From positions 1 to 64,000 of the forward strand of contig JABCRI010001388.1 in NCBI GenBank assembly GCA_015143295.1: a stretch of DNA of 64,000 nucleotides, read 5' to 3'. The DNA is from Tetracentron sinense. Its lineage: Eukaryota > Streptophyta > Magnoliopsida > Trochodendrales > Trochodendraceae. Position numbers and translations under genes: made by a program. Positions 30,651 through 30,794 of this stretch are shown here, in pieces (the stretch's first letter is position 1; every line of letters begins with the position of its first letter). Under the pieces are notes generated by a model. The model had not been told where the DNA came from. It did no database searches and was given only the letters and a program-made list of their open reading frames with translations.

Positions 30651-30794
30651 CTGAAATTTTAGCTAGTTACGTCAATTCAAGCCTCAACAGTGTATACACG
30701 TAGGTAAATATATATATAGCATACCAACTACGTACACAAGGAATAAAACATAACACAACAATCACGAATAAGGAAAATAACTCCTAACGCGTAC
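30651..30794 (-). other. predicted intron between gag and pol, element 1 (144 bp)
   Basis: On the minus strand the exon end CAAG is followed by GTACGCGTTAGG, and the segment ends AAAATTTCAG before GAACCC. By hand count 95 of 144 bases are A or T, T-rich in the sense direction, and TAAC and CTAAA branch-site-like motifs lie close to the acceptor. Splicing gives the codons for V-Q-G-T-L-L-V-N-E-Y-L-A-R-V, reading straight from Gag into protease. Unspliced RNA meets TAG at 30784-30786, four codons after the junction Gly begins. Splicing itself is inferred. Confidence 0.75.

Follow-up and report, generated by a model that had tools for sequence, protein, structure and literature searches.

A predicted intron at the gag–protease junction of a Tetracentron sinense chromovirus and its putative role in Gag and Gag-Pol output

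The first 64,000 nucleotides of contig JABCRI010001388.1 of Tetracentron sinense (assembly GCA_015143295.1; this whole stretch is hereafter the window) carry on the minus strand four internal regions of one Ty3/gypsy retrotransposon, a probable chromovirus provisionally placed in the Tekay/Del clade. It is quite likely that the Gag-Pol of this chromovirus is interrupted by a phase 1 intron, which would be retained to make Gag and spliced out to make Gag-Pol, partial splicing setting the ratio of the two. The interrupting segment between gag and protease is very probably a spliceosomal intron, given its invariant splice sites, the length drift confined to it, its U-richness and the continuity of homologous polyproteins across the junction. 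In the four units the segment lies at the following positions.

30651..30794, minus strand, predicted intron of unit 1, 144 bp, with donor AAG/GTACGC and acceptor TTTCAG/GA (slashes mark predicted exon edges), phase 1 within a glycine codon
38122..38263, minus strand, predicted intron of unit 2, 142 bp
45591..45734, minus strand, predicted intron of unit 3, 144 bp
53071..53215, minus strand, predicted intron of unit 4, 145 bp

These coordinates and lengths agree exactly with those of an earlier reading of the window (the original prediction), and the splice signals, AAG/GTACGCG and AAATTTCAG/GAACC, are identical in all four units. As it had also held, the frame of pol relative to gag varies between units (lengths 142, 144 and 145), and unit 4 diverges from unit 1 more within the segment than in the flanks. 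Near the junction 140 GT-AG pairs were considered, 50 of them frame-compatible; the chosen pair costs no residue on either side, and its ends are, by eye, the closest to the consensus. The unit 1 segment is both the T-richest and the AT-richest 144-base window of the gag-pol span, with no equally rich non-overlapping window among 4574 window positions, and it contains stops in all three frames. In units 1–3 the Gag frame reaches TAG at the fourth codon from the donor-spanning codon (30786–30784 in unit 1); unit 4 has TTG there and its Gag frame stops further on. The pol frame of unit 1 opens at 30666, immediately past a TAA; this TAA had been predicted, at 15 bases from the second exon, and is present at 16. 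No methionine codon precedes the protease DTG in that frame, also as predicted.

The original prediction had proposed to test whether related copies keep donor and acceptor while length and interior drift, and copies were collected from the 1.16-Gb genome. First-look candidates for a 451-base query across the segment numbered 3102, with the best 40 scored, and those for a protease query 13,990, with the best 150 scored; neither 3102 nor 13,990 is a copy count. After removal of 20 duplicate loci and with 2 of the 150 protease-query rows left out of sequence reading, 160 distinct places were read, comprising 4 in the window, 38 from the spanning query and 118 from the protease query. These copies were chosen by similarity and are related, and all figures below are counts and not independent trials. 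GT and AG are intact in all 160. The donor reads GTACGC in 152 copies, GTACGT in 6, GTATGC in 1 and GTACAC in 1; the acceptor reads TTTCAG in 158, TTTTAG in 1 and TGTCAG in 1. The segment ranges from 139 to 150 bp and differs from 144 bp in 44 of the 160 copies, whereas a length change was found in only 3 of 160 in the 150 aligned gag columns before the donor and in 3 of 160 in the 120 protease columns after the acceptor. U content is 0.43 in the segment against 0.31 and 0.31 in the flanking 52 nt on each side, 12 points higher; plant introns are generally about 15% richer in U (PMC3735527). In 149 of 160 copies the fourth codon ends the Gag frame, and in 154 stops occur in all three segment frames.

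These counts bear directly on whether Pol could instead be made by recoding (stop readthrough or frameshift), re-initiation or internal entry, the segment being a spacer that carries the signal. Recoding is known between gag and pol of LTR (long terminal repeat) elements (Gao 2003, as cited in PMC6317226), TAG does end Gag in units 1–3, and one segment frame is open in 6 of 160 copies. However, segment length modulo 3 is 0, 1 and 2 in 121, 17 and 22 of the 160 copies. Since the lengths fall in all three classes, a single fixed recoding event is insufficient for all copies, in line with the earlier argument that neither stop readthrough nor one fixed frameshift could serve them all. The stops in all three frames of most copies likewise speak against recoding, as does the folding of the four segments, which showed nothing unusual (z −1.58, −1.68, −0.34 and −0.07); re-initiation or internal entry would have to do without an ATG ahead of the unit 1 protease, and none of the three predicts invariant GT/AG. 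We consider this explanation very improbable, and classification as a gag/pol recoding element, which calls for a fixed frame relation or a readable stop, was rejected.

Comparison with homologous proteins points to the same edges. A pol-side protein search found 142 proteins, the best 120 of which were used, and a Gag-side search added 12, giving 132. The protease edge was matched by 120 of these; the Gag edge was unscored in 29 of the 120, leaving 91. In 86 of the 91, representing 63 distinct junction windows, the two edges are separated by just one residue, the split glycine. The polyprotein is therefore normally continuous at this junction, and the segment is, from protein comparison, an extra insert with exact edges. 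Homologous Gag-Pol proteins from grape, beech and other sources share the junction edges of the Tetracentron element and are continuous across them as proteins, whereas in the Tetracentron element the segment interrupts them. The named homologues are all from flowering plants, and the 120 pol-side matches used are 30–51% identical to the first 160 pol residues. Three of the 86 (P0026, P0034 and P0076) are long frames nearly filling short contigs.

A Gag relative predicted on a 942-base contig (P0122) is 56% identical over 58% of the query and ends in ...DDVVQGT plus ten residues, which suggests a relative interrupted at the same codon; as a predicted protein known without its DNA, it leaves a stop and the contig end indistinguishable. 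Two scans of viral contigs revealed no relatives, and none of the 96 viral contigs with a 15-base donor pattern was matched by tblastn with either the protease or the Gag query. A protein search with the Gag C-terminus gave no match at E 0.01 among 27 candidates.

Both flanks appear constrained. In 100 of the places read, the ratio of nonsynonymous to synonymous polymorphism (pN/pS) is 0.41 in the gag tail and 0.20 in the protease head, where it is biased low by how the copies were chosen; stops are absent from 93 of the 100 gag tails and from all 100 protease heads. At nine splice-signal sites, minor alleles common to at least two copies number 0 against 3.7 expected from the interior rate, and private singletons number 3 against 2.5 expected. 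The interior thus seems less constrained than the signals, the shared-allele part of this being weak (about e to the minus 3.7), and the shared-allele pattern, though weak, is that expected if signal-damaged copies fail to reproduce. These data are difficult to reconcile with an unspliced, neutral insert carried by a defective lineage that is mobilised in trans. Such a lineage might be suspected from the broken pol of units 3 and 4 and from the 67 of 150 protease-query rows in which the pol frame is not 1113 codons long; nevertheless, 83 of the 150 keep an open pol frame of 1113 codons, both flanks are constrained, and splice-like ends, phase continuity and homologue-exact edges would together be unexpected of an arbitrary insert. 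This explanation is scarcely credible.

The segment has the features of a U2-type intron, namely GT...AG kept across copies, U-richness over the flanks, length drift, and an exact-edged insert absent from homologues, that absence being judged on proteins only. A spliceosomal intron accounts for every point listed here, while each of recoding, re-initiation and a neutral insert leaves at least one unexplained.

A number of observations weigh against the intron reading, together with the low bias of the protease pN/pS, the weakness of the shared-allele depletion and the ambiguous end of the P0122 relative given above. The consensus donor is GTAAGT, and GTACGC is an imperfect match to it. The invariance of GT/AG is partly expected, because the copies are similar, similarity-picked and not independent: 40 places were found by an intron-spanning query, and the others outside the window by a query with intron-encoded residues. 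The intron end encodes the first five or so residues of the protease query, and every one of the 150 rows begins at residue 1–3; intron-free copies therefore probably rank below those scored. In 11 of 160 copies the stop of the Gag frame comes after the fourth codon, up to offset 135, and one segment frame lacks a stop in 6, all with 146-base segments (L086, L087, L088, L089, L102 and L103). In the first four of these an open pol frame of 1160 codons takes in most of the segment, and the Gag frame continues for 37 codons to its stop. Spacing at the junction is other than one residue in 5 of 91 homologues (2, 2, 2, 3 and −1), near-duplicates are frequent among the homologues, and some of these proteins may come from spliced gene models, though the three long frames named above nearly fill their contigs. 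Finally, the intron and its splicing are predicted from DNA and protein comparison.

The anatomy of the element, its invariant signals, the length drift and the coding continuity of homologues are directly observed; from them we infer the splicing itself, its partial extent and its control of the Gag to Gag-Pol ratio. In the proposed mechanism, a U2-type spliceosomal intron, about 144 bp long and in phase 1, would lie in a glycine codon of an otherwise continuous chromovirus Gag-Pol. The retained intron would end the Gag frame almost immediately in most copies, so that unspliced RNA would make Gag. This RNA would double as the packaged genome, which must be unspliced because new copies carry the intron. 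Spliced RNA would join gag in frame to protease, reverse transcriptase, RNase H and integrase, giving Gag-Pol, and partial splicing would keep Gag above Gag-Pol. The use of unspliced RNA for Gag and of spliced RNA for Gag-Pol is reasonably likely as the role of the intron, and control of Gag to Gag-Pol output by splicing is plausible.

A real intron might also be spliced nearly to completion, with Gag-Pol as the main product, as in ordinary one-frame chromoviruses, a little unspliced RNA being enough as genome, and the intron acting in RNA export or expression or merely being tolerated. The splice sites are well preserved, and most plant LTR groups encode their polyprotein in a single frame (PMC6317226). 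Against it, the intron can persist in new copies only if genome RNA goes unspliced, and the fourth-codon stop of most copies is a layout yielding Gag from unspliced RNA. We regard near-complete splicing as unlikely and favour partial splicing.

The elements of the original prediction are better described as four internal regions that alternate with five shared LTRs, each about 2.3 kb long, in one head-to-tail array (24925–57129, minus strand) with a period of about 7.47 kb and a spacing of mostly 7468–7485. LTR pairs within the array differ by 2.8–9.5%, and the array was therefore probably built by unequal recombination, not by a single insertion. Each of LTRs b–e is adjoined by a primer binding site, which we take to be of the tRNA-Met type. 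The parts of the array are as follows.

24925..27223, minus strand, LTR a, starting TGTAG, far end approximate
32405..34703, minus strand, LTR b, common to units 1 and 2, ends approximate
39873..42173, minus strand, LTR c, ends approximate
47346..49644, minus strand, LTR d, ends approximate
54826..57129, minus strand, LTR e, ends approximate
32390..32400, minus strand, primer binding site TGGTATCAGAG of unit 1
39858–39868, 47331–47341 and 54811–54821, minus strand, equivalent primer binding sites of the other units
30784..32043, minus strand, gag frame of unit 1, 419 aa, with Retrotrans_gag, Ty3_capsid and a CCHC knuckle, its TAG end just within the segment
27325..30666, minus strand, pol open frame of unit 1, 1113 codons stop to stop, with protease, reverse transcriptase, RNase H and integrase parts
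38253..39581, minus strand, gag open frame of unit 2, stop to stop
34796..38137, minus strand, pol open frame of unit 2, 1113 codons
45724..46980, minus strand, gag open frame of unit 3, whose pol is split into several frames
53079..54500, minus strand, gag open frame of unit 4, whose pol is partly open (49918–52710)

Units 1 and 2 thus have an open gag and a pol open for 1113 codons, and pol is broken in units 3 and 4. Protein families were searched with pol cut in three separate pieces. Unit 1 has the order Gag, protease (PR), reverse transcriptase (RT), RNase H (RH) and integrase (INT) of plant chromoviruses. Integrase parts were matched in both units searched, the rve core in unit 4 only and under its cut-off. 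At the C-terminus of unit 1 pol, a chromodomain match (PF00385) scores E 3.5e-5 and 24.1 bits, slightly under the 25.1 cut-off.

Elsewhere in the genome, neighbouring matches lie about 7.47–7.56 kb apart on C16, C23, C379, C1244 and C759, a spacing that suggests further such arrays on these contigs. Within the window, 4380–5704, in opposite orientation and about 83–85% like the array LTRs, is probably a piece of an older LTR from a related element. Also present are a tandem repeat at 5771–6195 (period about 53 bases, copies 93–95% alike), a LINE-like remnant on the plus strand at 14767–18889 with endonuclease, reverse transcriptase and RNase H-like frames, and a Ty1/copia-type fragment on the minus strand at 62607–63518 with GAG-pre-integrase and an integrase core.

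Spliced plant LTR elements are already known, among them Ogre, BARE, EVADE and CRR, the last a CRM-clade chromovirus. Ogre, a non-chromovirus Ty3/gypsy element of the Tat lineage, has an intron between polyprotein frames that is spliced from part of its transcripts, making the whole polyprotein possible (PMC6317226). The Tetracentron element resembles it in having an intron between polyprotein frames and, by our inference, partial splicing; it differs in that the intron sits between gag and protease, is about 144 bp long and belongs to an element with a probable chromodomain. The original prediction rightly placed the Ogre intron at a site other than the Gag/protease junction (PMC6317226). An Ogre-type split polyprotein, with the intron between PROT and RT, was also rejected as a classification, the Tetracentron intron preceding PR, with PR and RT in one open frame. 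In the Ty1/copia elements BARE1 (PMC3735527) and EVADE (PMC12786077), splicing tunes Gag against Pol, spliced RNA giving Gag only and unspliced RNA Gag-Pol; in the Tetracentron element these roles would be reversed. Transcripts of CRR, a rice gypsy element, are spliced with removal of rt and creation of two open reading frames (PMC3735527), whereas splicing here would remove no coding sequence. The Ty1/copia element Bianca has two open reading frames about 172 bp apart, taken to suggest special regulation (PMC6317226); the gap is alike, but the superfamily is copia, and splicing is not shown there. For Tekay/Del chromoviruses, no report of an intron between Gag and protease was found in the open-licence literature searched. 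The novelty originally suggested is partly right, spliced plant LTR elements, the gypsy element CRR among them, being already known (PMC3735527).

In summary, we favour on balance the view that an abundant chromovirus lineage (160 copies read, with a relative known from another sequence source) acquired an intron between gag and protease, host splicing replacing the single-frame strategy of its kin. Unspliced RNA would be both genome and Gag mRNA and spliced RNA the Gag-Pol mRNA, a convergence on Ogre at a different site and on BARE and EVADE with opposite polarity. To our knowledge, it is poorly resolved how plant Ty3/gypsy elements with one frame come to make more Gag than Pol. In an intron-bearing family with continuous homologues, simple RNA mapping can test this, and such a family also bears on the export and silencing of intron-retaining transposon RNA in plant cells.
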